NCBI GenBank assembly: GCA_030949705.1
Contig: JAUZSF010000018.1
Location: forward strand, 62,001-126,000
Origin: Robiginitomaculum sp.
GTDB lineage: Bacteria > Pseudomonadota > Alphaproteobacteria > Caulobacterales > Maricaulaceae
DNA: 64,000 nucleotides
Direction of reading: 5' to 3'
This document shows positions 3,918 through 50,505 of this stretch, in pieces. The first letter of the stretch is position 1. Each line of letters begins with the position of its first letter. Position numbers and translations under genes: made by a program. The notes beneath the pieces are model-generated. The model worked only from the letters and a program-made list of their open reading frames with translations, was not told the DNA's origin and ran no database searches.

Positions 3918-4250
3918 ATGTATGAAATTTGTTCGCACGACACCTTATGTCAAAGCGCTTGCCAGGATGAAGTTGAGGCATTCGAGGATGCCATTGCGGC
4001 CAACCCGCTGGTAGGGAAGCTCATTCCCGGTCTTGGTGGCATGCGCAAATTTCGCTTTGCCTATGGTAATAAAGGCAAACGCGGTGGTGGACGGACGATT
4101 TATTATTATGCCGCCGGGCCAGACACCGCCTTTATGATTGCGGCCTATGCCAAAAGTAAAAAGACCGACCTGACCCCGGCCGAGAAAAAAGAAATCGCCA
4201 AACTGGCAAAAGAGCTGGCGCGGCATTCAAAAAAGAGCGGAGAGATATGA
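3918..4250 (+). CDS. HigB/RelE-family toxin (Gp49-like), probable N-terminal frameshift
   Basis: The body of the protein (NPLVGKLIPGLGGMRKFRFA, then GKRGGGRTIYYYA and a lysine-rich C-terminus) matches the RelE-like toxins of HigB-type modules, which cleave mRNA at ribosomes. The open frame begins with the atypical MYEICSHDTLCQSACQ. A second ATG at 3922, in the +1 frame, encodes MKFVRTTPYVKALARM, which is what the N-terminus of this family looks like. The two frames would join near 3960-3970. Relative to relatives, about four codons plus one base appear altered there, so the toxin may be inactivated. If the open frame is functional as it stands, its first 16 residues are non-homologous. It overlaps the antitoxin start by 4 nt. 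Confidence 0.7.
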   Translation: MYEICSHDTLCQSACQDEVEAFEDAIAANPLVGKLIPGLGGMRKFRFAYGNKGKRGGGRTIYYYAAGPDTAFMIAAYAKSKKTDLTPAEKKEIAKLAKELARHSKKSGEI

Positions 4251-4546
4251 TGACCACCTTAGCCAATGATCTTCGTGAAGGCTTAAAAGAAGCCATCGCG
4301 CACACCAAGGGTGATATCACCCTGCCAACGCGCAGTGTTGATCCCCTGCCCGCCGAAGCCATTTTGCACATCCGTAAAAGCGTATCTAAAAACCGCAAGG
4401 ATTTTGAGCGCCGCTTTGGCATCCCCGCCGAAACCCTGCGCGGCTGGGAAACCGGCCTGCGCGTTCCCGACCAAACCGCGCGGGTATTTTTGCGGGTGAT
4501 CGAAAAGACCCCCGAAGAAGTGGAGAAGGCCGTTATGGGTGGGTGA
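4247..4546 (+). CDS. HigA-like XRE-family antitoxin and autorepressor
   Basis: This protein of about 99 residues has a helix-turn-helix in its second half (FGIPAETLRGWETGLRVPD, about residues 56-75), as in antitoxins of the HigA/MqsA-like XRE group. It should neutralise the upstream RelE-like toxin and bind the operator pair ahead of the operon. The ATG at 4247 overlaps the toxin stop codon, with a GGAGAG Shine-Dalgarno sequence; the adjacent ATG at 4250 could serve equally. Toxin-first order is typical for higBA. The antitoxin frame is intact although the toxin seems frameshifted. Confidence 0.85.
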   Translation: MMTTLANDLREGLKEAIAHTKGDITLPTRSVDPLPAEAILHIRKSVSKNRKDFERRFGIPAETLRGWETGLRVPDQTARVFLRVIEKTPEEVEKAVMGG

Positions 4547-4556
4547 GAGGAATAGC

Positions 4557-4607
4557 ATGAGCAAAAAAGATATTGGTTTGCAACTTAAGTTAACTGGGTG
4601 CATATGA
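4557..4607 (+). other. Short leader-like ORF or gene remnant (16 codons)
   Basis: ATG at 4557 with a good AGAGGAA ribosome-binding site encodes MSKKDIGLQLKLTGCI and then stops at 4605-4607. It sits 10 bp after the antitoxin stop, in the same frame as the AT-rich orphan that begins at 4626, with two stop codons (4605 and 4611) between them. It could be the truncated start of a former third operon gene, cut when the AT-rich sequence arrived, or a leader peptide. No homology can be claimed. Confidence 0.3.
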
Positions 4608-4625
4608 CGATAAACCACCCAACTT

Positions 4626-5159
4626 ATGAGAAACCTCTCTACTTTTTTTGCTGATGCCATAAAAATGGTTATTAAAGATATAGAGCGCGCATCTGAAGAT
4701 ATGGACGCGGAAGAATTACAATTCGTGATATATGAGGACATAGAGTTTATTGAAACCTTGCTTAGTGCTTCATTTTTAGTCATTCAGACCTACATTACTT
4801 TAGTCCTCGAGAAAGCAAAGGCACTTTGCAAAAATTCTCATGAATCTCATGCTGATTACAAGAAACGTATACTAAAAAAAGGACCTTCTTTCGATGAAAA
4901 TTATTCTAAAATTGAAATCTTGTGGGCACTGGCAAATTACGTAAAACACAATGAAGAGTGGACTCAAGATATATGGAAAAATCCAGAAGCTAAGCAAGAA
5001 GTCAAAGCTGTCGGCCTTAGATTAGGCTCAACAGGTAACTTACGTAAAGCAGCAAAAGCCTTGGGAAATGAGAATTTTAGCGACACATCAGTGTTCATCA
5101 AGATTGTTGATGATTGGGCTAAAGAAATTTATGAAGAAGCATCGTCGGCGTCTACATAA
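4626..5159 (+). CDS. Hypothetical protein of AT-rich composition
   Basis: The predicted protein has 177 residues, is mostly alpha-helical with many acidic and lysine residues, and has no signal peptide or membrane segment. A segment NYVKHNEEWTQDIW (about residues 106-119) resembles a KH-x-E-W signature seen in uncharacterised helical proteins, but no family is recognised. The codon use and base composition are much richer in A and T than in all flanking genes, which suggests recent acquisition. No clear Shine-Dalgarno sequence precedes the ATG at 4626; an internal ATG at 4665 is an alternative. Its place directly behind a toxin-antitoxin pair, followed by a palindromic repeat, marks an accessory insertion spot. 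Confidence 0.6.
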   Translation: MRNLSTFFADAIKMVIKDIERASEDMDAEELQFVIYEDIEFIETLLSASFLVIQTYITLVLEKAKALCKNSHESHADYKKRILKKGPSFDENYSKIEILWALANYVKHNEEWTQDIWKNPEAKQEVKAVGLRLGSTGNLRKAAKALGNENFSDTSVFIKIVDDWAKEIYEEASSAST

Positions 5160-5167
5160 ACATCCCC

Positions 5168-5236
5168 GTCATCCCGGCGAAGGCCGGGATCCAAATTGAG
5201 GCATCACTATGGATTGCGGCCTTCGCCGCAATGACG
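5168..5236. repeat. Palindromic intergenic element with two hairpins
   Basis: The element begins CGTCAT and ends ATGACG. It contains two perfect 8-bp hairpins: ATCCCGGC-gaag-GCCGGGAT (5171-5190) and ATTGCGGC-cttc-GCCGCAAT (5213-5232). The same plan, with different stem sequences, recurs at 56631-56711 and partly at 6476-6712. Such CGTCATCCCGG elements are common non-coding repeats in alphaproteobacterial genomes. It follows the AT-rich orphan at its 3' end and could also act as an RNA-stabilising structure. Confidence 0.8.
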
Positions 5237-5279
5237 AATAGTTTGTTATCATACCCCTGCCTTTCCCGAACGACATTGG

Positions 5280-5594
5280 ATGCAAAAATTGAAACCCGAT
5301 CTGCAATTTGAATTTACCGCCGCACTGTGGCTGTACCCCGGCAAGGCGGCCTGGCATTTTGTCACGGTGCCCAAGGCCATATCCGAAGAGATCAAATTTT
5401 TTACCAGCGCCAATAAAACCGCCTGGGGGTCGGTGCGGGTGGGCGTGCGCATAGGGCAAAGCCAATGGAACACCTCGCTGTTTCCCGATAAAAAATCCGG
5501 ATGCTATTTCCTGCCCATCAAGGCAGAGATCCGCAAGAAAGAAAAAATCAGCACCGGTGATGCGCTGGACATCCAACTGGATGTGCTGGTTTAG
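5280..5594 (+). CDS. DUF1905 domain protein
   Basis: A 104-residue protein that is a single DUF1905 domain, a small beta-barrel-like fold of unknown function. The family-like segments are LWLYPGKAAWHFVTVP, WGSVRVGVRIGQSQW, SLFPDKKSGCYFLPIKAEIR and a C-terminal GDALDIQL. There is no signal peptide, so it is cytoplasmic. It stands alone between a palindromic repeat and a predicted terminator, hence monocistronic. The ATG at 5280 is the first in-frame start; its Shine-Dalgarno sequence is weak. Confidence 0.85.
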   Translation: MQKLKPDLQFEFTAALWLYPGKAAWHFVTVPKAISEEIKFFTSANKTAWGSVRVGVRIGQSQWNTSLFPDKKSGCYFLPIKAEIRKKEKISTGDALDIQLDVLV

Positions 5595-5642
5595 CCTCTC
5601 AGGCCAAAAATAAACACATGCCGATAAGGGCAACAAAACAAG

Positions 5643-5669
5643 AGGTTATCATTTTACGATAGCCTTTTT
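5643..5669 (+). terminator. Rho-independent terminator after the DUF1905 gene
   Basis: AGGTTATC (5643-5650) can pair with GATAGCCT (5658-5665) with one G-U pair and a 7-nt loop. The stem is followed by a run of five T. It lies about 50 nt downstream of the DUF1905 stop codon. Confidence 0.6.
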
Positions 5670-5702
5670 GGTCTATTATTTATAACATAATATATATTGT
5701 TT

Positions 5703-5731
5703 TTGACTTTGTGCTCATAATTTCTTACATA
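5703..5731 (+). promoter_or_regulatory. Sigma-70-type promoter of the membrane protein/XRE pair
   Basis: TTGACT (5703-5708) and TACATA (5726-5731) are 17 bp apart, in an AT-rich stretch ending about 30 bp before the ATG at 5762. This is a prediction from consensus only. Confidence 0.45.
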
Positions 5732-5761
5732 CCAATCAGGAAATTCATTAGGAAGAACACA

Positions 5762-6238
5762 ATGTCCCTCAAAATATGGTCGTCTCTTTCAAACCGGGAA
5801 AAGAACATTATGGGCGCCATGGCGCTGGATGGGGCGGTGACGCTGTATTATTTTTCACACGCCATGGCGCTGAATGGCGGGCCAAGTCTGAACAGTCTGG
5901 CCATGGGGATATTGGTCGGCAAAACCATTGTTCTCTCCATAGTGCTGGCCATTTTGCTGCATATGCTGATCAACGGACGCAAAGATCCCGAAGCCGCGGA
6001 TGAACGCGATAGCGTCTTTGAGGGCAAGGCCAATGCCATTGCCTATGTGGTGTTATTGCTGGGCGTGATGATCGTTATGGGAAGCGTTCTCACGGGCAGC
6101 TGGTTTGATACTGCCTTCGCGGCGATCCGTTTCATCAACACACCGTTTTTTGTCTTTCACGGGCTGGTGCTGGCCATTACCGCCTCGGACTTTGCCCGCC
6201 ACAGCGCGCAGCTGGTTTTCTATCGACGGGGCTATTGA
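5762..6238 (+). CDS. Integral membrane protein paired with a small XRE regulator
   Basis: This protein of 158 residues has four predicted transmembrane segments (near residues 15-35, 42-66, 95-115 and 130-150) and a charged cytoplasmic loop NGRKDPEAADERD between segments 2 and 3. The start at 5762 (MSLKIWSSL) is chosen because AGGAAG lies 6 nt upstream; an in-frame ATG at 5711 would lie over the predicted promoter. The next gene, a 76-residue helix-turn-helix protein, begins 1 nt after the stop. Small membrane protein plus YozG-like XRE regulator is a recurrent two-gene unit; the membrane partner may modulate the regulator or be its target. Its biochemical function is unknown. Confidence 0.75.
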   Translation: MSLKIWSSLSNREKNIMGAMALDGAVTLYYFSHAMALNGGPSLNSLAMGILVGKTIVLSIVLAILLHMLINGRKDPEAADERDSVFEGKANAIAYVVLLLGVMIVMGSVLTGSWFDTAFAAIRFINTPFFVFHGLVLAITASDFARHSAQLVFYRRGY

Positions 6239-6716: not shown

Positions 6717-8216
6717 TCACCCCATGGTGGGGATAATAAAGCTTTGATCCTCTACCGAGCCATCGGGCCAGCGCTGGGTGATGGTTTTGATCTTGGTCCA
6801 GAACCGTACGCCTTCGGGGCCATGCTGGTTCACATCGGCAAAGGCCGAGCGCTTCCAGCCGCCAAAGGTGTGATAGGCCACCGGCACCGGGATCGGCACA
6901 TTAATGCCAACCATGCCGACCTGTACCTTGGCGGCAAATTCACGGGCCGCCAGCCCATTGCGGGTAAAGATGGCCACGCCATTGCCGTATTGATGGTTGG
7001 AGGGCAGCGCCGCGGCTTCCTCCAGCGTTTCGGCGCGCACCACCTGCAATACCGGGCCAAAAATCTCGTCCTGATAGGATTTCATACCGGCGGTGACATT
7101 GTCGAACAAAGTCGGTCCGACAAAAAAGCCGCCTTCCTGACCCGGCACGGTCAGACCACGTCCATCGATCAGTAATTTGCCGCCTTCGTCCTCGCACATC
7201 TTTATATAGTTCTCGATCCGGGCCTTGTGCGCTGCGGTAACCACCGGTCCATAATGCGCCGTGGCATCGGTGGAGACACCGACTTTCAGCTTTTTGATCT
7301 CAGGGGTGATGCGCGCAATAAACTCATCAGCCGTAGCCTTGCCCACTGGCACCGCCACGGGCAGAGCCATACAGCGCTCCCCGGCCGAGCCAAAGGCCGA
7401 GCCCAGAAAGTCGCGCACCACCTGATCCATATCGGCGTCCGGCATAATAATGCCGTGGTTTTTGGCCCCAGCCATGGCCTGCACCCGTTTGCCGTTTGCC
7501 GCGCCGGTTTGATAAACATAGTGCGCAATATCAGAGGAGCCAACAAAGCTGATGGCGCGTACATCGGGATGCGTTAGCAGGGCATCCACCGCCTCTTTAT
7601 CACCATTGACCACATTCAAAACCCCCGCCGGTGCGCCAGCCTCGAGGAATAGTTCTGCCAGCCTCAAAGGCACGGACGGATCTTTTTCGGAAGGTTTCAA
7701 AATAAAAGTATTGCCGCACGCAATGGCCACGCCAAACATCCACATGGGGATCATGGCCGGAAAGTTGAACGGGGTAATGCCGGCGACCACGCCCAAGGGC
7801 TGGCGCATGGAATAAACATCAATGCCGGGGCCGGCCCCTTCGGTATATTCGCCCTTTTGAAGGTGCGGAATACCACAGGCAAATTCGATCACTTCCATAC
7901 CGCGCTGTACATCGCCGCGCGAATCGGCAACCACCTTGCCGTGCTCGGCCGAAAGCAGTTCGGCCAGTTCGTCCAAATGTTCTTCCAGCAGAGTTTTGAA
8001 GCGGAACATCACCCGCGCCCGGCGTTGGGGGTTCATCGCCGACCAGGCCGGAAAGGCGGCTTGCGCCGCGGCTACGGCGGCACCCATTTCGTCTACCGAG
8101 GCCAAAGGCGTCTTGGCCTGTACTGCCCCGGTATTGGGATCAAACACATCGGAAAACCGGCCGGATTTGCCGGATACGGTTTCACCATTGATAAAGTGAT
8201 TTAGCTCGCGAGTCAT
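6717..8216 (-). CDS. mmsA: CoA-acylating methylmalonate-semialdehyde dehydrogenase
   Basis: This enzyme converts methylmalonate semialdehyde to propionyl-CoA (and malonate semialdehyde to acetyl-CoA) with NAD+ and CoA, in valine and myo-inositol degradation. The 499-residue length is typical. Visible features are the ALDH substrate/cofactor segment GITPFNFPAMIPMWMF, NAD-binding ISFVGSS, and the catalytic cysteine in SAGERCMALP (about residue 285). The MmsA/IolA subgroup signature at the C-terminus (FWTKIKTITQRWP) separates it from other aldehyde dehydrogenases. The start at 8216 (MTRELNHFING) has AGGA about 8 nt upstream; the open frame continues to 8291. It is monocistronic here. Confidence 0.95.
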   Translation of the reverse strand: MTRELNHFINGETVSGKSGRFSDVFDPNTGAVQAKTPLASVDEMGAAVAAAQAAFPAWSAMNPQRRARVMFRFKTLLEEHLDELAELLSAEHGKVVADSRGDVQRGMEVIEFACGIPHLQKGEYTEGAGPGIDVYSMRQPLGVVAGITPFNFPAMIPMWMFGVAIACGNTFILKPSEKDPSVPLRLAELFLEAGAPAGVLNVVNGDKEAVDALLTHPDVRAISFVGSSDIAHYVYQTGAANGKRVQAMAGAKNHGIIMPDADMDQVVRDFLGSAFGSAGERCMALPVAVPVGKATADEFIARITPEIKKLKVGVSTDATAHYGPVVTAAHKARIENYIKMCEDEGGKLLIDGRGLTVPGQEGGFFVGPTLFDNVTAGMKSYQDEIFGPVLQVVRAETLEEAAALPSNHQYGNGVAIFTRNGLAAREFAAKVQVGMVGINVPIPVPVAYHTFGGWKRSAFADVNQHGPEGVRFWTKIKTITQRWPDGSVEDQSFIIPTMG

Positions 8217-8428
8217 GATGGAATTCCTTGCATCTTTGGACACCTCTTCATGGGGACCCTTCACCTGGCGTGATACGCTGTGCAATCGCAAAGGTCCAGA
8301 TGAGATGACGCGACCAATTGCCCAACGTCACAGACATTTTTTTCACATGTGCATTTACCACAAAAATATGATAGTAATTCTCCCCAGAGGGCAAAATCAT
8401 GCAAGCCAAACCTTGGGGGGACGGCTAA

Positions 8429-10882
8429 ATGACACAGGCAGCACGGCCTTTGGCCACCTATTTCTTACTAGCACTTTTACTGGCCATAACGCCTGTGTTT
8501 GCCCGCGCACAGACACCCGAAGAAACCCAGGCTGCCGCCGAGTTGAAAGCCGCCGAGGCCAAGGTGGCTGCCGCCCAATCTGCCTATGATGCCGCCAACC
8601 AGAAAGCCGGGGCCGCCATCAAGGCCTATGAGGCCGCACGCGACAAGGCCCGGGCCCAAGCCGCCAAAGTGGCTCGCCTGCGCGAAAGTCTGCAGGCCGC
8701 CAAGGCACAATACCGCCGCACCGCGCCACATATTCGTTCAGAACTGGAACGCTGGAAAAAAGAGCTGGAGAACCGCCAGAACAATGGCCAGAGCGCCGAC
8801 AAGATTGCGGAGGCACAACGCTATGTCACCGCCCATGAAAACTGGTTGCGGCGGCGCCTGAAAAAGTCATCGGAACGGTCCATTGTTAAAATACGCGCTG
8901 CCCGGCTGAAGACCGCCATGCAGGATCTGGATACCTTGACGGCAAAAAAGAAAGCCATATCCGACAAAGGCGTGGTGCGATTGAAAGAACGCGATGCGGC
9001 CATGGCGGCGCTGGCCACCGCCCGATCGGATCTGGACCGTTTGCGCAAGGAGATAGATAAAAAACTTGCCCGCAGCGAGCCACCGTTTTTACAGACCGTA
9101 CAGGTGCGCAGCCCCGGCGGAAAATTGCTCTATGACGCAAAATGGGTGCCCGCCGAAGAGAAACTGGAACAGGAACTGCGCCTGACCGAATATCTGGTCA
9201 AGGACCTCAGCGGGGTTTTGGCCAAACGCAAAAAACGCATTGATGACTGGATCGAGCTAACCCTCAGCGCACAGAAACGGGCGCAAAAAAAGCTTGATCA
9301 TTACCTGGCCTATGTTGGCGGCGAGGGAATCGGCTTTCTGGGCGGTGGCACCGGCACATGGCTGACCATCGGGGTCGAATTGCTGGATGCCGGCGTTACG
9401 GTTTTCAGGGACTGGAAGACATTTGGTCCATACGCCGTCGCCATTGAGGCGGCCTTTCAGGTCAAGGATGCCCTGACCCGTGATGGCAAGAAATACCCGC
9501 AATGGGATGTTGCCGCCTTGCCAGGCATTGCCAATTCAGGCAGCCAGCCAACCCCCGCGGAGGCGGCCATGGACGGGGCCAGCGGCAATGCCAACAGCAC
9601 CGCGCAGAAAAACGCCCTGAAAAACTCTCTCAAAGCCATTGTTCGCCAAGAAGGCAAGGCCCTGGCCAGTGTGAATTATATGAAATCGCTGGCCGCACGC
9701 CATAAACGCGGTGTGGTGGCAATCGCCCTTAGCGATTCGGTGGTAAACGGCAGCGAACCGGTGTTGAAGGCCCTGCACACCGGCGCGGCGCGAGTAACCT
9801 CGCCCAGCCAGGTGATCCAGCAATTCTGGAAAAATCCATCGCGACTGGCAAGGAACTTCAAAAGCGAATTCCTTGATCCCGGCAATTGGAAAGATGTCGC
9901 CCGTGATTTGGTTCAAACTGCCCTGAAAGATGCCTTGATATCAGCCATAGACTCCGAACGGATTGCCCGCTGGACTGCCTATATGGTGGTGGATGCAGAG
10001 CGCAACTATCTGGTCAGCCAGTTAAAAGCCGAAGGCGCAATGCGCCGTAATGATCAACAGCTCTTGCAAAGCATTCTGGATCGACAAGAGGAATTACGCC
10101 AGGAAATCCTGACCGCCAAAAAGGCTCGCACACTGGAAATCAAGGTCAACAAAACCCTGAAGGGTAAGGGGCAGTTCAAACTGAAACTTGGTTTCAATCG
10201 CCCGGTAAACCTGCAATCGGTTCAGGTGGGCAGCAAGGAAGCAAAAGAGACCGCCGGAAAAACCGGCAAGGCCATAGAGGTGCGTTTTGATCTGGTCGAT
10301 CTGCCTGACCCGGCCAAACTTTCCGTTCAGGCAGTACACCCCGTGGTATCCACGCGGGTATTGGATGATCCCGCCAGTCGGGCGATTTGGAACCCGTTTT
10401 CTCATCGCTTTAGCGGCTATGAAAGCGGGCCCGACACCAATCACAAATTCAGAACCCGGCCCATTAAAGACGGCAAAGCCTACGCGATTATCCTCGATAC
10501 CTCGGGATCCATGGACGACAATAATCGCATTGGACAGGCCAAAAGTGCCCTGCAATCCCTGCTGGCCAGCAAGACCATCAAAAAGAAAGATACGGTGGCG
10601 CTTTATACATTTGTCGGGTGTGGCATCGCCAACCCCGTGCCGTTCACATCCAATAAAAAGCAGGTTTCAGAGGCCATTAATAACGCCTCGACTGGGGCAT
10701 CAACGCCATTGGCCGCCGGTATCTTAACCGGTGCCCGCGCCCTGTTTGAAGAGGGACGACGCAAAGAAGGCGTTCTGGTTGTGGTTACCGATGGCGAAGA
10801 AAGTTGTGACGGCAACCCGGCGGCAGCGCTGATGGCCGCACGCAAAATGGCCGATGCTATCAAGATACGAAAGGAGCGCTGA
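8429..10882 (+). CDS. Secreted coiled-coil protein with truncated C-terminal vWA domain
   Basis: An 817-residue protein. Signal peptide at residues 1-28 (cleavage near FARAQ), then long alanine/lysine-rich coiled coils (about 30-220), a glycine-rich hydrophobic patch near 300, a middle region without recognised fold, and a von Willebrand factor A domain from about residue 685. The MIDAS motif DTSGSM (Asp690), the later STPLAAG threonine and TDGEESCDG are all present, so metal binding is plausible. The protein stops 26 residues after TDG, before the last beta-strands and helix that complete a vWA fold. A matching C-terminal portion appears near the end of the next gene. The stop TGA overlaps the next ATG (TGATG), and its last codons supply that gene's GGAG ribosome-binding site, so the two are translationally coupled. 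Confidence 0.85.
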   Translation: MTQAARPLATYFLLALLLAITPVFARAQTPEETQAAAELKAAEAKVAAAQSAYDAANQKAGAAIKAYEAARDKARAQAAKVARLRESLQAAKAQYRRTAPHIRSELERWKKELENRQNNGQSADKIAEAQRYVTAHENWLRRRLKKSSERSIVKIRAARLKTAMQDLDTLTAKKKAISDKGVVRLKERDAAMAALATARSDLDRLRKEIDKKLARSEPPFLQTVQVRSPGGKLLYDAKWVPAEEKLEQELRLTEYLVKDLSGVLAKRKKRIDDWIELTLSAQKRAQKKLDHYLAYVGGEGIGFLGGGTGTWLTIGVELLDAGVTVFRDWKTFGPYAVAIEAAFQVKDALTRDGKKYPQWDVAALPGIANSGSQPTPAEAAMDGASGNANSTAQKNALKNSLKAIVRQEGKALASVNYMKSLAARHKRGVVAIALSDSVVNGSEPVLKALHTGAARVTSPSQVIQQFWKNPSRLARNFKSEFLDPGNWKDVARDLVQTALKDALISAIDSERIARWTAYMVVDAERNYLVSQLKAEGAMRRNDQQLLQSILDRQEELRQEILTAKKARTLEIKVNKTLKGKGQFKLKLGFNRPVNLQSVQVGSKEAKETAGKTGKAIEVRFDLVDLPDPAKLSVQAVHPVVSTRVLDDPASRAIWNPFSHRFSGYESGPDTNHKFRTRPIKDGKAYAIILDTSGSMDDNNRIGQAKSALQSLLASKTIKKKDTVALYTFVGCGIANPVPFTSNKKQVSEAINNASTGASTPLAAGILTGARALFEEGRRKEGVLVVVTDGEESCDGNPAAALMAARKMADAIKIRKER

Positions 10883-12546
10883 TGCAAGGCATAAGAAACA
10901 TCTTGTCTCTCATGTTCCTGTGCGCCATGGCGGCGCCCGCCATGGGACAAGACACCGATAAAACGGCCTCCAACGCCCAAAACAATGACCCGCGGGAAAA
11001 TATCGCTTTTGCCGATATGGAAGCAGTGACGCCAGGCACGGTCCTGGTGACCCTGTTTCCCGCTGCGGACCAGGATGAAATTGCCTTGCAAATGGATGAA
11101 GAGGGCTATGTCTTTACATCCCTTGGCGATACCGCCGAAGATTTTAGCCTGTATGTAGAGATTTACGACCCGCTAGGGCGCATGATGGGAATTAATGCGG
11201 CGCGGATAGACTTTCCCGGCCGGGTGCGGCTGGTGGTGCGTGACCGTTGGAACGATTTCAGCAGCCCGGATCCCTTTCCCCTGGTCATAGAAACCAAGCC
11301 GGAAGTGGACCTGAATGAGCCCAATGATCAACCTGAACAGGCCTTTCCCCTCACCCTGGACGCGTGGAATGATGTCATTCTGTTGCCCGTTGGTGATGTT
11401 GATTATTTCTCTTTTGACGTGCCCGCCAAAGGCACCATCATTACCGACGTTCGCGATCCGCCCGTTGCCATTGCGGTACAGATTCGCCCCGCGGACACGC
11501 CTGATTTTTCGGATGGCTGGGCCGCTGCCGTTGAACCGGGCAAGCATTTTCTTAAAATCAAAGAACGCTGGGGCAGCGCAGCCTCTGAAAACTCCTTTCC
11601 CGTGCGATTGCGCTTTGTGCCTGACCCTCCCAGTACGCCAACCGAGCTCAGCCTGAGTCTGCCAGCCCAAGTCTGGCTGGCGCGTAGCGGCCTGTCACAA
11701 AAATTTATACTGAAAGTTCCGCAATTTGGCCTGTATACCATACGTCTGGATGGGCCGGTCCCCGATGGTGCAAAGATATTTGTGACCCCAGCGGACGATA
11801 CAGATACCGACGCCAGCCCCCAAAATGATGGGACAAAGCGCTTTGAAAAACATCTGGCCAAAGGGGTCTATGAAATCGACGTCCGCAGTGGATCAGAGGG
11901 GGCCAAGGCACCCTTTTATCTGATTGCCGAAGCCGAGGTTTCCACCGATACAAGCGAGCCAAACGATACGCCACAAAGCGCGCTGGCGCTAAAAACCGGG
12001 GAAGAAACACCGGTGACGCTCTATCCCTATACCGATTCCGACTGGATATCGCTGAAGGCCAAAGGCCGGGGCAATTTCTATTTGCGCGTTCAGGATCTAA
12101 ATCGGGACGACGGTATTACCGGCGGCATGATTGAGGTCTTTTTTCTGGATAAAGACGGTGAACGCAAACCCTTATCTGTGCGGCCAGGAGCCGGCTATGA
12201 TATTTTCGGCCCGATACCTGTAGATAAGAAAGACATAAAGATAGAGCTTAAAAACCGCGGCTATACGCGCTGGATACCCTTGATGGTAACGCCGGTTTTT
12301 ACGGCAGAGGGAGAAAAGGCGGACAGTGCCATTACGCTGATTGGCGTTGAACTGGACGAAAACCAGGCGCGTAATATGAAAGCCATGGCGATGAATGCGG
12401 GGGTTGATTTCGTTCTGGCGGAATCCGCCAGCGATCTGGGTCAACGCCTGAAGGAAGCCACCACGGCCAAACGACAATTCCCCTGGTGGTTGTGGGGACT
12501 GCTGGTTTTGATCGGGGCCGGATATTATTTTTGGCGACGCAAATAA
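10882..12546 (+). CDS. Membrane-anchored PPC-repeat protein ending in a vWA-tail-like segment
   Basis: A 554-residue protein with a signal peptide (residues 1-23, ending AMGQ), acidic linkers and at least two, probably three, pre-peptidase C-terminal-like beta domains. Two of them begin EPNDQPEQAF (about residue 145) and EPNDTPQSAL (about 359) and contain VGDVDYFSFDVPAKG and YTDSDWISLKAKG. From about residue 484 the sequence ITLIGVELDENQARNMKAMA, followed by GVDFVLAESASDLGQRL, resembles the final strand and helix of a vWA domain. A last transmembrane helix (WWLWGLLVLIGAGYYF) and RRK end the chain, so the domains face the periplasm. It overlaps the upstream vWA gene by one base. The role is unknown; PPC and vWA domains both mediate extracytoplasmic protein contacts. 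Confidence 0.82.
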   Translation: MQGIRNILSLMFLCAMAAPAMGQDTDKTASNAQNNDPRENIAFADMEAVTPGTVLVTLFPAADQDEIALQMDEEGYVFTSLGDTAEDFSLYVEIYDPLGRMMGINAARIDFPGRVRLVVRDRWNDFSSPDPFPLVIETKPEVDLNEPNDQPEQAFPLTLDAWNDVILLPVGDVDYFSFDVPAKGTIITDVRDPPVAIAVQIRPADTPDFSDGWAAAVEPGKHFLKIKERWGSAASENSFPVRLRFVPDPPSTPTELSLSLPAQVWLARSGLSQKFILKVPQFGLYTIRLDGPVPDGAKIFVTPADDTDTDASPQNDGTKRFEKHLAKGVYEIDVRSGSEGAKAPFYLIAEAEVSTDTSEPNDTPQSALALKTGEETPVTLYPYTDSDWISLKAKGRGNFYLRVQDLNRDDGITGGMIEVFFLDKDGERKPLSVRPGAGYDIFGPIPVDKKDIKIELKNRGYTRWIPLMVTPVFTAEGEKADSAITLIGVELDENQARNMKAMAMNAGVDFVLAESASDLGQRLKEATTAKRQFPWWLWGLLVLIGAGYYFWRRK

Positions 12547-12567: not shown

Positions 12568-13056
12568 TCATATTTCTCTGGAATCAAACAGCGCGGCCAG
12601 CCGGGGGCCTTGCTCCCGGATATCAAAGGCCGCGGCCCAGCCGGTTTTGAACTGGCCGTTCAGCAGACGAGCCGACGGGCCGTCATGATCGAACCCTTCG
12701 TCCAGTAATTGATGTGCCAATATGGCAATGCCGGGATTATGGCCAATCAGGGCCAGCGTCTGACCGTCTTTTCCCTGCTGGTGGAACACCTCGTCCAGGG
12801 TTTTGGGTGAGGCCAGATACAGTTTTTCTTCGACTATGGCGGGGCAGGTTTCCATGGCCATGGCCTGCCAGCTATCCAGCGTGCGTTGGGCGCTGGAGAC
12901 GATGGCCAGATCCGGCACCCAGTTTTCCCGCCGCAATATGTCGCCAAGCCGGTGCGCGTGTGCCTGTCCCTTTGCGGAAAGCGGGCGTCCATGGTCCCCC
13001 GGTTCGCGCCCAAAAGCGGCTGCTTTGGCGTGACGGATAAGGAGGAGGCGCTGCAT
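12568..13056 (-). CDS. SixA-type phosphohistidine phosphatase
   Basis: A histidine-phosphatase-superfamily protein of 162 residues. The catalytic RHA-type motif is at the N-terminus (LLLIRHAKA, His about residue 8), the second arginine is in SSAQRTLDS and the second histidine in LIGHNPGI. SixA in E. coli dephosphorylates phosphohistidine proteins such as ArcB or NPr. The start at 13056 (MQRLLLIRHAK) gives the family's usual N-terminus; the frame is open to 13134, but this would overlap the divergent gene. The Shine-Dalgarno sequence is weak. It converges with the PPC-protein gene, 21 bp apart. Confidence 0.88.
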   Translation of the reverse strand: MQRLLLIRHAKAAAFGREPGDHGRPLSAKGQAHAHRLGDILRRENWVPDLAIVSSAQRTLDSWQAMAMETCPAIVEEKLYLASPKTLDEVFHQQGKDGQTLALIGHNPGIAILAHQLLDEGFDHDGPSARLLNGQFKTGWAAAFDIREQGPRLAALFDSREI

Positions 13057-13093
13057 GATTTGACCCGAATCAGATGGATGGTTACCGTCCATT

Positions 13094-14674
13094 ATGCGCT
13101 TTTTTATCTTCTTTGCTGCGGTGTCGCTATTCATAGCATCGCTTCAGTTTGCGTGGTTATCACCATATTTTTATGTGAGCGCATTTTTATTTGGCATTTT
13201 AGTGCTCTATGGCATTTTTGATCTAACCCAGCGCCGCCATGCCTTGTGGCGCAATTACCCCATTGTTGGCCGCGCCCGCTGGTTACTGGAATTTGTGCGC
13301 CCGTATTTGCGCCAATATCTGGTCGAGAGCGACACCGATGGCATGCCCTATAATCGCGAACAGCGCAGCCTGGTCTATCGCCGTGCCAAAAACGTAGTCA
13401 GCGTCGAACCCTTTGGCAGCCATCTCAACTTTGATGAAAACCGCTATGAATGGCTGAACCATTCCGTGGCAGCGCGCCAGGCCGAACACAAGGATTTGCG
13501 TGTGGATGTCGGCGGGCCAGGCTGCAAGCAACCCTATTCGGCCAGTGTATTTAACATTTCCGCCATGAGCTTTGGGGCCCTGGGCGCCCATGCCATCGAG
13601 GCCCTGAACCGCGGCGCGGCGGCGGGCGGGTTTTATCATGATACCGGCGAGGGCGCGATCAGCCCCTATCACCGCATGGGCGGCGATCTGGTGTGGGAAC
13701 TGGGCACCGGCTATTTTGGTTGTCGGGCCAAAGACGGTGGGTTCGATCCAGAAAAATTCAAGGATACGGCAGCCTTTGAGGCGGTCAAAATGATCGAAAT
13801 CAAGCTCAGCCAGGGGGCCAAACCCGGCCATGGCGGCGTCCTGCCCGGGGCCAAGGTTACCCGCGAGATTGCCCAGACCCGCGGCATACCCGAAGGCGTC
13901 ACCTGTGAATCGCCGCCCTTTCACCGGGCCTTTTCCACCCCTCTTGGCCTGATGGAGTTTATCGCAGATTTGCGGGATCTTTCCGGCGGCAAACCGGTGG
14001 GGTTCAAACTGTGTATTGGTCATCGCTGGGAATTTCTGGCCATGATCAAGGCCATGCTGCAAACCGGCATTCGCCCGGATTTTATTGTCATTGATGGCGC
14101 CGAAGGCGGCACGGGGGCTGCCCCGGTGGAGTTTCAGGACCATATTGGCGTGCCCTTGCGCGAAGGCATTATCTTTGCCCGCAATGCCCTGGTGGGGGCG
14201 GGCCTGAAAGAGGAAATTCGGATTGGGGCGTCCGGCAAGATGATCTCGGCCTTTGGCCTGGCCTCCTCCATGGCCATGGGGGCCGACTGGTGCAATGCGG
14301 CGCGCGGTTTCATGTTTGCGCTGGGCTGTGTGCAATCGCTGAATTGTCATACCAATCGCTGTCCGACCGGCATTGCCACACAAGACAATCTCCTGCAACG
14401 CGGTCTGGTGGTGGATCACAAGGCGGTGCGGGTCACCAATTATCACCGCAATACCATCCATGCCCTGGGCGAAGTGGTGGCCGCGGCAGGTCTGTCGCAC
14501 CCATCCGAACTCAGACCCTGTCATCTTTATCACCGCCTCAGCGCCACCGAGGCACGCCCCGCCAATGAAGTTTATGACTTTCTGGCCCGTGGTGTTTTGC
14601 TGGATGATCCGGACAGCACGTATCTCGCCTCTTCCTGGGCCAGCGCCAGTGCCGAAACTTTTGTCTCGGTATAA
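13094..14674 (+). CDS. FMN-binding glutamate synthase family protein, membrane-anchored
   Basis: This 526-residue protein has two hydrophobic helices at the N-terminus (residues 1-40) and then a GltB-type FMN-binding TIM barrel. Typical segments are the IDGAEGGTGAAPVEF phosphate/FMN site and a cysteine cluster ALGCVQSLNCHTNRCPTGIA, which in glutamate synthase ligates a [3Fe-4S] centre. The glutaminase domain is absent. Stand-alone proteins of this type (YerD-like) are thought to be redox enzymes with unknown substrates. Start at 13094 is the first ATG; no strong Shine-Dalgarno sequence is visible. It is divergent from the SixA gene. Confidence 0.9.
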   Translation: MRFFIFFAAVSLFIASLQFAWLSPYFYVSAFLFGILVLYGIFDLTQRRHALWRNYPIVGRARWLLEFVRPYLRQYLVESDTDGMPYNREQRSLVYRRAKNVVSVEPFGSHLNFDENRYEWLNHSVAARQAEHKDLRVDVGGPGCKQPYSASVFNISAMSFGALGAHAIEALNRGAAAGGFYHDTGEGAISPYHRMGGDLVWELGTGYFGCRAKDGGFDPEKFKDTAAFEAVKMIEIKLSQGAKPGHGGVLPGAKVTREIAQTRGIPEGVTCESPPFHRAFSTPLGLMEFIADLRDLSGGKPVGFKLCIGHRWEFLAMIKAMLQTGIRPDFIVIDGAEGGTGAAPVEFQDHIGVPLREGIIFARNALVGAGLKEEIRIGASGKMISAFGLASSMAMGADWCNAARGFMFALGCVQSLNCHTNRCPTGIATQDNLLQRGLVVDHKAVRVTNYHRNTIHALGEVVAAAGLSHPSELRPCHLYHRLSATEARPANEVYDFLARGVLLDDPDSTYLASSWASASAETFVSV

Positions 14675-50344: not shown

Positions 50345-50441
50345 TGGAGGCTGGCAGCGGACGTGCTCCTCGCCAACCCGGTCAGGTCCGGAAGGAAGCA
50401 GCCGTAACGAGTTTTTGCGCGGGTCGTTGTTCAGTCTCCAC
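50345..50441 (+). ncRNA. ffs: Signal recognition particle 4.5S RNA
   Basis: The SRP core loop GGTCAGGTCCGGAAGGAAGC (50380-50399) is an exact match to the universal small bacterial SRP RNA. The ends TGGAGGCTG and CAGTCTCCA pair to close a hairpin of about 97 nt. The RNA joins Ffh to target membrane proteins to SecYEG. A -10 element TATACT at 50333-50338 predicts transcription starting at about 50345, in agreement with the 5' end; the -35 is poor. It precedes dnaX, as in many bacteria. Confidence 0.96.
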
Positions 50442-50505
50442 CCTATCCTCTGCATTTGTAATGCAAACGCTGGCCTGTGCCTTCGGGTCAGGCTAAAGTG
50501 CGCTC

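Follow-up and report, generated by a model that had tools for sequence, protein, structure and literature searches.

A vWA domain divided between two adjacent genes in Robiginitomaculum and related bacteria

In a window of 64,000 nucleotides from the alphaproteobacterium Robiginitomaculum sp. (GenBank assembly GCA_030949705.1, contig JAUZSF010000018.1, positions 62,001 to 126,000 of the forward strand; the window is the whole stretch that was analysed, and coordinates refer to it), two overlapping open reading frames (ORFs), ORF1 and ORF2, divide between them the sequence of one von Willebrand factor A (vWA) domain. ORF1 carries the part with the metal-ion-dependent adhesion site (MIDAS) and ends before the C-terminal part, and the C-terminal segment of ORF2, here called the tail, is homologous to the part that is missing from ORF1. 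The recurrence of this split in related bacteria suggests that the two proteins, exported separately, have to come together before there is a working domain, and we consider it very likely that ORF1 and ORF2 complete a single vWA fold in trans, with the anchored ORF2 capturing ORF1. The two overlapping genes stand as they were described in the initial annotation, at 8429-10882 and 10882-12546, with the following features.

8429..10882, forward strand: ORF1, 817 residues; an N-terminal helical, coiled-coil-like region (judged by eye), a beta-rich domain and then a C-terminal truncated vWA domain; predicted to be exported
8429..8512, forward strand: signal-peptide-like start of ORF1, MTQAARPLATYFLLALLLAITPVFARAQ, judged by eye
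10478..10879, forward strand: truncated vWA domain of ORF1, residues 684-817, with MIDAS residues D690-S692-S694, T759 and D788 and the invariant Cys731 and Cys793, ending 24 residues past Cys793
10870..10876, forward strand: Shine-Dalgarno-like AAAGGAG, 5 bases 5' of the ORF2 ATG, read from the sequence
10882..12546, forward strand: ORF2, 554 residues; PPC-like body, vWA tail and membrane anchor; predicted to be exported
10882..10950, forward strand: signal-peptide-like start of ORF2, MQGIRNILSLMFLCAMAAPAMGQ, a hydrophobic stretch, with similar starts in relatives by eye
11035..12303, forward strand: all-beta PPC-like body of ORF2 with two EPND motifs; its PPC match lies under the Pfam cut-off
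12322..12471, forward strand: vWA tail of ORF2, residues 481-530, DSAITLIGVELDENQARNMKAMAMNAGVDFVLAESASDLGQRLKEATTAK, the strand-helix-strand-helix absent from ORF1
12484..12540, forward strand: C-terminal membrane helix of ORF2, residues 535-553, from the sequence and as a helix in the AlphaFold model

The vWA domain has a Rossmann-like fold with a six-stranded sheet, in which the residues of the MIDAS motif have established roles. In ORF1 the motif is complete (DxSxS at D690/S692/S694, Thr at T759, Asp at D788), and its residues, together with Cys731 and Cys793, are invariant in the alignments of relatives (6 rows; 8 rows). The Pfam vWA model PF00092 matches ORF1 residues 687-805 over profile positions 4-128 of 174 only, so that some 46 C-terminal positions (129-174) are missing and no full-length match lies within the one chain; the short model VWA_2 (107 positions) is fully matched. 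In an AlphaFold model of residues 564-817, built from four sequences (mean predicted local distance difference test score, pLDDT, 54.8), there are four vWA strands and the chain ends with the helix after the fourth. The early end that the initial annotation had noticed is thus borne out by the PF00092 match, with the correction that 22 residues, not 26, follow TDGEESCDG; the protein closes with ...VLVVVTDGEESCDGNPAAALMAARKMADAIKIRKER.

The stop codon of ORF1 and the start codon of ORF2 overlap by one base (TGATG), and long ORFs on the reverse strand flank the pair (6717-8291 and 12568-13134). A programmed frameshift that fuses ORF1 and ORF2 is unlikely, because ORF2 has its own ribosome-binding site, start codon and signal-peptide-like stretch. 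A signal peptide of its own had been proposed for ORF2 before and agrees with what we see; the PPC-like domains proposed with it are matched weakly: PF04151 (PPC) gives 15.9 bits with ORF2 (P0002) and 20.3 bits with the ORF2 of locus L071, against a gathering cut-off of 25.9 bits. Neither ORF1 nor ORF2 has an NCBIfam match at that database's cut-off.

Of the 398 genomes of the order that were searched with a profile of the ORF1 core, 19 match it at E ≤ 1e-20; all 19 loci were read, as were further loci in G122, G129 and G068 (from the family search) and in G446, G679 and G521 (strong matches in a class search of 385 genomes). The split is present in 25 of the 25 loci read, which come from five families (f1, f2, f5, f8, f83): in every one an ORF1 with a truncated vWA domain adjoins an ORF2 with a signal-peptide-like start, as judged by eye, and a tail. 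The spacing between the two genes is -4 to +6 bases in the 24 loci measured. Three ORF1s are cut at their start (L041, L074, and L020 as fetched), and in L101, the locus of G521, the tail was assigned by eye and has a weak profile score of 3.0 bits. An assembly join or a frameshift error that broke one gene, an explanation to which the one-base overlap and the draft state of the genome (29 contigs) lend some colour, is rejected because the split recurs in all 25 loci read, which lie in different genomes; the ribosome-binding site and signal-peptide-like start of ORF2 and the variable spacing speak against it as well, and we regard it as next to inconceivable. At none of the 25 loci did we find a complete vWA domain in ORF1 or a sign that the tail folds as something else, either of which the initial annotation had named as fatal to the split.

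We distinguish three sub-types, with L101 set apart from all of them. In sub-type A (five loci: the window, L038, L039, L040 and L074) ORF1 terminates at the vWA domain, and all five proteins end exactly 24 residues past the same conserved cysteine. In sub-type B (13 loci) a complete ORF1 has about 1,370-1,460 residues, with a linker and a further domain after the vWA part, and ORF2 about 330-380. In sub-type C (six loci) ORF1 has about 1,020-1,060 residues and a domain like that of sub-type B, and ORF2, of about 510-570 residues, continues after the tail with further sequence in place of a membrane helix. Some features of single loci may be recorded here. The ORF2 at L068 (4518-5498, reverse strand) starts with a lipobox-like LMLVAC and may be a lipoprotein in addition to having its C-terminal helix. 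The N-terminal part of the sub-type B ORF1s, including that of L042 (7480-11760, reverse strand), resembles by eye a zinc-dependent phospholipase C or S1/P1 nuclease (EGYAQHFLQDRWAMGHMF), with no Pfam match in this part of L042 and the others. Near the sub-type B pair lie genes for flavin proteins (L041, 614-3693, forward strand; L042, 12418-13923, reverse strand), which we take to be tryptophan-halogenase-like.

The strand-helix-strand-helix that closes a vWA domain is located, by its sequence, in ORF2. The single-chain vWA protein of a related genome at L021 runs VLVVLTDGEETCDGDPAAAIQALRNLGWDIRVNIVGFAIDDAELERTFESWAAAGGGSYFSAADAEGLGEAMTRA, where the ORF2 tail reads ITLIGVELDENQARNMKAMAMNAGVDFVLAESASDLGQRLKEA. 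For comparison we built a profile from 12 non-redundant C-terminal segments of single-chain vWA proteins (15 found). The 48-residue tail of the window scores 25.8 bits against it, which was reached by none of 500 shuffles of the same tail, none of 9,500 shuffled tails in all (maximum 15.7) and none of 696 other pieces of ORF2 (maximum 4.4). When 19 tails were tested one by one, each of those of sub-types A (five) and C (five) was equalled by at most one of 500 of its own shuffles, and of the nine sub-type B tails L076 was reached by none and L069 by three. A scan of whole proteins with the same profile, which involves no choice of motif, matched 12 of 24 ORF2s at E < 0.1, every time in the tail (for the window 19.7 bits, residues 488-528), and none of 24 ORF1s (best 1.9 bits, E 0.49); the 12 unmatched ORF2s are that of L038 (E 0.72, in the tail), ten of sub-type B and that of L101.

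Comparison of profiles with profiles was made with five of five sub-type A tails, five of six of sub-type C and 11 of 13 of sub-type B. The scores against the single-chain segments were 42.9, 27.5 and 28.8 for A, C and B, respectively; none of 100 column shuffles reached any of these (maxima 17.9, 16.2 and 21.6), and reversed tails scored 9.7 to 13.2. Among the sub-types themselves, the tail profile of B matches that of A with 83% probability, and the matches of C to A (11%) and of B to C (2%) are not significant. The tail profiles of all three sub-types match the C-termini of single-chain vWA proteins, and the view of the initial annotation that ORF2 of the window ends with the usual vWA C-terminus and a membrane helix holds. 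Its further suggestion, that KMADAIK in ORF1 and KADSAIT in ORF2 resemble each other at the junction, does not: the likeness is not conserved, and we take it as chance and reject a repeat at the junction, because L038 has NGSVYLVG where the tail of the window starts KADSAITL.

The missing part might still be supplied twice, with the further domain that follows the vWA part in the ORF1s of sub-types B and C completing the fold in cis and the tail being redundant there. Such a domain is indeed present in both; however, the profile of the missing segment matches none of the 24 ORF1s (its best score, 1.9 bits in L070, is located before the vWA domain) and sub-type A has no such domain. We therefore reject completion by this domain, which we hold to be extremely improbable.

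When the ORF1 part was fused with the tail of its own pair, the PF00092 score rose in all five pairs tried (+6.8, +4.0, +1.8, +2.4 and +4.8 bits), and the match then reached profile positions 145-166. With shuffled tails the change was -1.0 to 0 in nine of ten joins, the tenth (L042) gaining 1.0 bit and also a longer match. A profile of joined pairs, made from 15 of 19 after exclusion of the near-duplicates L037, L067, L072 and L073, matched the solved vWA chain 4rck with 45.1 bits over chain positions 20-211, in an alignment that crosses the junction; with the tails reversed it scored 35.5 bits over 20-138 only and ended before the junction.

Several observations weigh against the homology of the tail or against completion in trans. 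The tails for the shuffle test were excised by a motif of our own choosing, which gives real tails some advantage over shuffles, and seven of the nine single sub-type B tails were equalled or exceeded by 15 to 284 of 500 shuffles, so that for sub-type B the significance comes from the tail profile only. Among the Pfam vWA models PF00092 alone gained from the joined tail, and VWA_2, VWA_3 and VWA_CoxE gained nothing. Of the 13 chains of the Protein Data Bank (PDB) that the joined-pair profile matched, 4rck is the only one to span the whole tail (ITIH4 reaches its start); a search of the PDB with a profile of tails only brought up no vWA chain, and the window tail as a phmmer query gave no match. 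Both AlphaFold models are of low confidence, with four sequences each (pLDDT 54.8 for ORF1 and 60.5 for ORF2), and when the ORF1 model is searched with Foldseek, Clp1, which is not a vWA protein, comes first (E 9e-4, TM 0.23), with vWA chains (Ro60, Rpn10, collagen VI) ranked only at E 0.3-0.65; Foldseek searches with these models yielded no useful lead. In sub-type C and in L101, finally, no membrane helix directly follows the tail. In the model of isolated ORF2 the tail has no strands, with pLDDT < 50 around residues 477-490, which would fit a segment that requires a partner and is weak evidence for one. Given the profile comparisons, we nevertheless conclude that the C-terminal segment of ORF2 is homologous to the vWA part missing from ORF1.

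The two genes also keep company. A profile of the sub-type B ORF2 (E ≤ 1e-15) finds 10 of 398 genomes of the order, exactly the 10 with a sub-type B ORF1, and P0002 is matched in five of 137 genomes of the family, in all five of which ORF1 adjoins. These counts bear on the idea that the tail is a shared anchor that completes the vWA domains of several exported proteins besides ORF1. Related genomes do encode other vWA proteins; those inspected, however, are single-chain with a C-terminal segment of their own, and the sub-type B ORF2 never occurs without its ORF1 in the 398 genomes, which makes a shared anchor very improbable. Further afield, the other 12 matches of the class search (E 3.6e-21 and weaker) cover mostly the vWA part only, and the 10 of them inspected are all single chains that include a C-terminal segment of their own. 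In the phylum, a search of 398 genomes returned seven matches besides that of the window itself (E 1.9e-17 and weaker); the five inspected, which do not include L094 and L096, are all single-chain. No new locus was found in the families of G521 (1 genome), G446 (3) and G417 (105). Spread of ORF1 on plasmids was considered and rejected: P0001 (ORF1) had no tblastn match at E ≤ 1e-8 in 72,556 plasmid records.

Between the window and its nearest relative, G124, dN/dS is 0.134 for ORF1 (0.126 for its vWA part), 0.104 for the body of ORF2 and 0.088 for the tail, in which there are six non-synonymous and 15 synonymous changes; the tail is under purifying selection. It could be that the vWA gene broke long ago, that the short vWA domain of ORF1 folds and works alone, and that the tail was kept for another task, such as spacing the body of ORF2 from the membrane. 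The complete MIDAS in ORF1 alone would suit such a relic of fission, as would the fact that in sub-types A and B the anchor follows the tail immediately. Yet the tails of three diverged sub-types all retain a vWA pattern, selection on the tail is purifying, the two genes adjoin and co-occur without exception in the material read, and the low-confidence model of ORF2 forms no strands in the tail; we judge a relic improbable. As to history, no unsplit member of the ORF1 family turned up in the 22 genomes that the ORF1 core matches at E ≤ 1e-39, and in a tree of the vWA part (24 split and 21 single-chain sequences), where several long branches meet, a single origin of the split is not rejected (approximately unbiased test, p-AU 0.26). 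The initial annotation had offered insertion of the PPC gene into an ancestral vWA gene and completion of one fold by two secreted proteins as an either/or; the two are not mutually exclusive, one being a matter of history and the other of present function, and completion is strongly implied.

For completion in trans we propose the following mechanism. The MIDAS domain is divided in the loop that leads from the helix behind the fourth strand into the fifth strand, and ORF1 and ORF2 would be exported as separate proteins. ORF2 would be held by its C-terminal membrane helix and so display the strand-helix-strand-helix just outside the membrane, and ORF1 would contribute the metal-binding half with an open edge strand. 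This open edge would take up the ORF2 tail to give one complete vWA domain. Both proteins would then be needed for docking, for folding and for a working MIDAS, and the MIDAS domain would exist only in the pair; paired ORF1 would become tethered to the envelope. In sub-type C, where no membrane helix follows the tail, tethering would need another way. Export of both proteins, their physical docking, the tethering and the binding of a ligand at the MIDAS are what we infer from these data. The C-terminal helix of integrin-type vWA domains passes on the state of their metal site. Because here this helix sits in the anchored partner, directly joined to the membrane helix, the split could also serve as a switch, a reversible, force- or ligand-gated coupling of two exported proteins, in which the two-chain domain could come apart, and ORF1 be set free, when the anchor is pulled or when ligand or metal is lost; we offer this tentatively, as an unlikely though not far-fetched role.

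Elsewhere in the window, the sole Rfam match at gathering level is a bacterial small signal recognition particle RNA (RF00169, 60.7 bits) at 50346-50442 on the forward strand. Two small overlapping ORFs on the same strand, 3918-4250 and 4247-4546, lie in a stretch of lower G+C content (0.465 at 4001-6000); they may encode a RelE/HigB-type toxin and a helix-turn-helix antitoxin, which they resemble.

The split of the vWA domain is real and conserved, and its completion in trans is better supported than the sequence of the window alone could show. The vWA domain is a common binding module that is treated as a single-chain unit; a natural split that is inherited stably would show that completion of this fold in trans is possible outside the cytoplasm. 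The pair offers a ready-made two-part MIDAS module with a specific pairing mechanism between exported proteins, and a clean route to the role of the C-terminal helix in metal and ligand binding. It also counsels caution in annotation, since the third that is missing from a 'truncated' vWA protein may be encoded by the neighbouring gene. In our literature searches, whose coverage excluded most subscription journals and bioRxiv preprints, no naturally occurring vWA domain divided between two genes turned up; two matches for split or incomplete vWA domains (wheat, Giardia) concern, in the portions available, eukaryotic proteins.

The solved relatives that we found are all single-chain. Bacterial vWA proteins of the BatA/BatB kind (3ibs, 4jdu) and 4rck share the MIDAS motifs and the C-terminal segment with the pair, but are each one chain, whereas here the C-terminal third belongs to a second exported protein, whose body is PPC-like. 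Among exported pilus proteins, strand complementation is familiar from the fimbrial donor strand, and there likewise one exported protein supplies beta structure to another. A pairing of PilX with PilY1 has been predicted, and some PilY1 proteins carry a vWA domain (PMC13190605); in the part of that source available it is not presented as completion of a vWA domain, whereas what would be supplied here is part of a MIDAS domain, two strands and two helices. Natural gene fission with complementary products is described, for example, for mitochondrial cox2 (PMC5374615, PMC9895450), and fission products can, according to PMC9895450, form heteromeric complexes. As in fission of the cox2 type, two genes here would make one ancestral protein; unlike it, the break lies inside one small domain, the two pieces probably leave the cytoplasm as separate proteins, and a large extra region belongs to the second.

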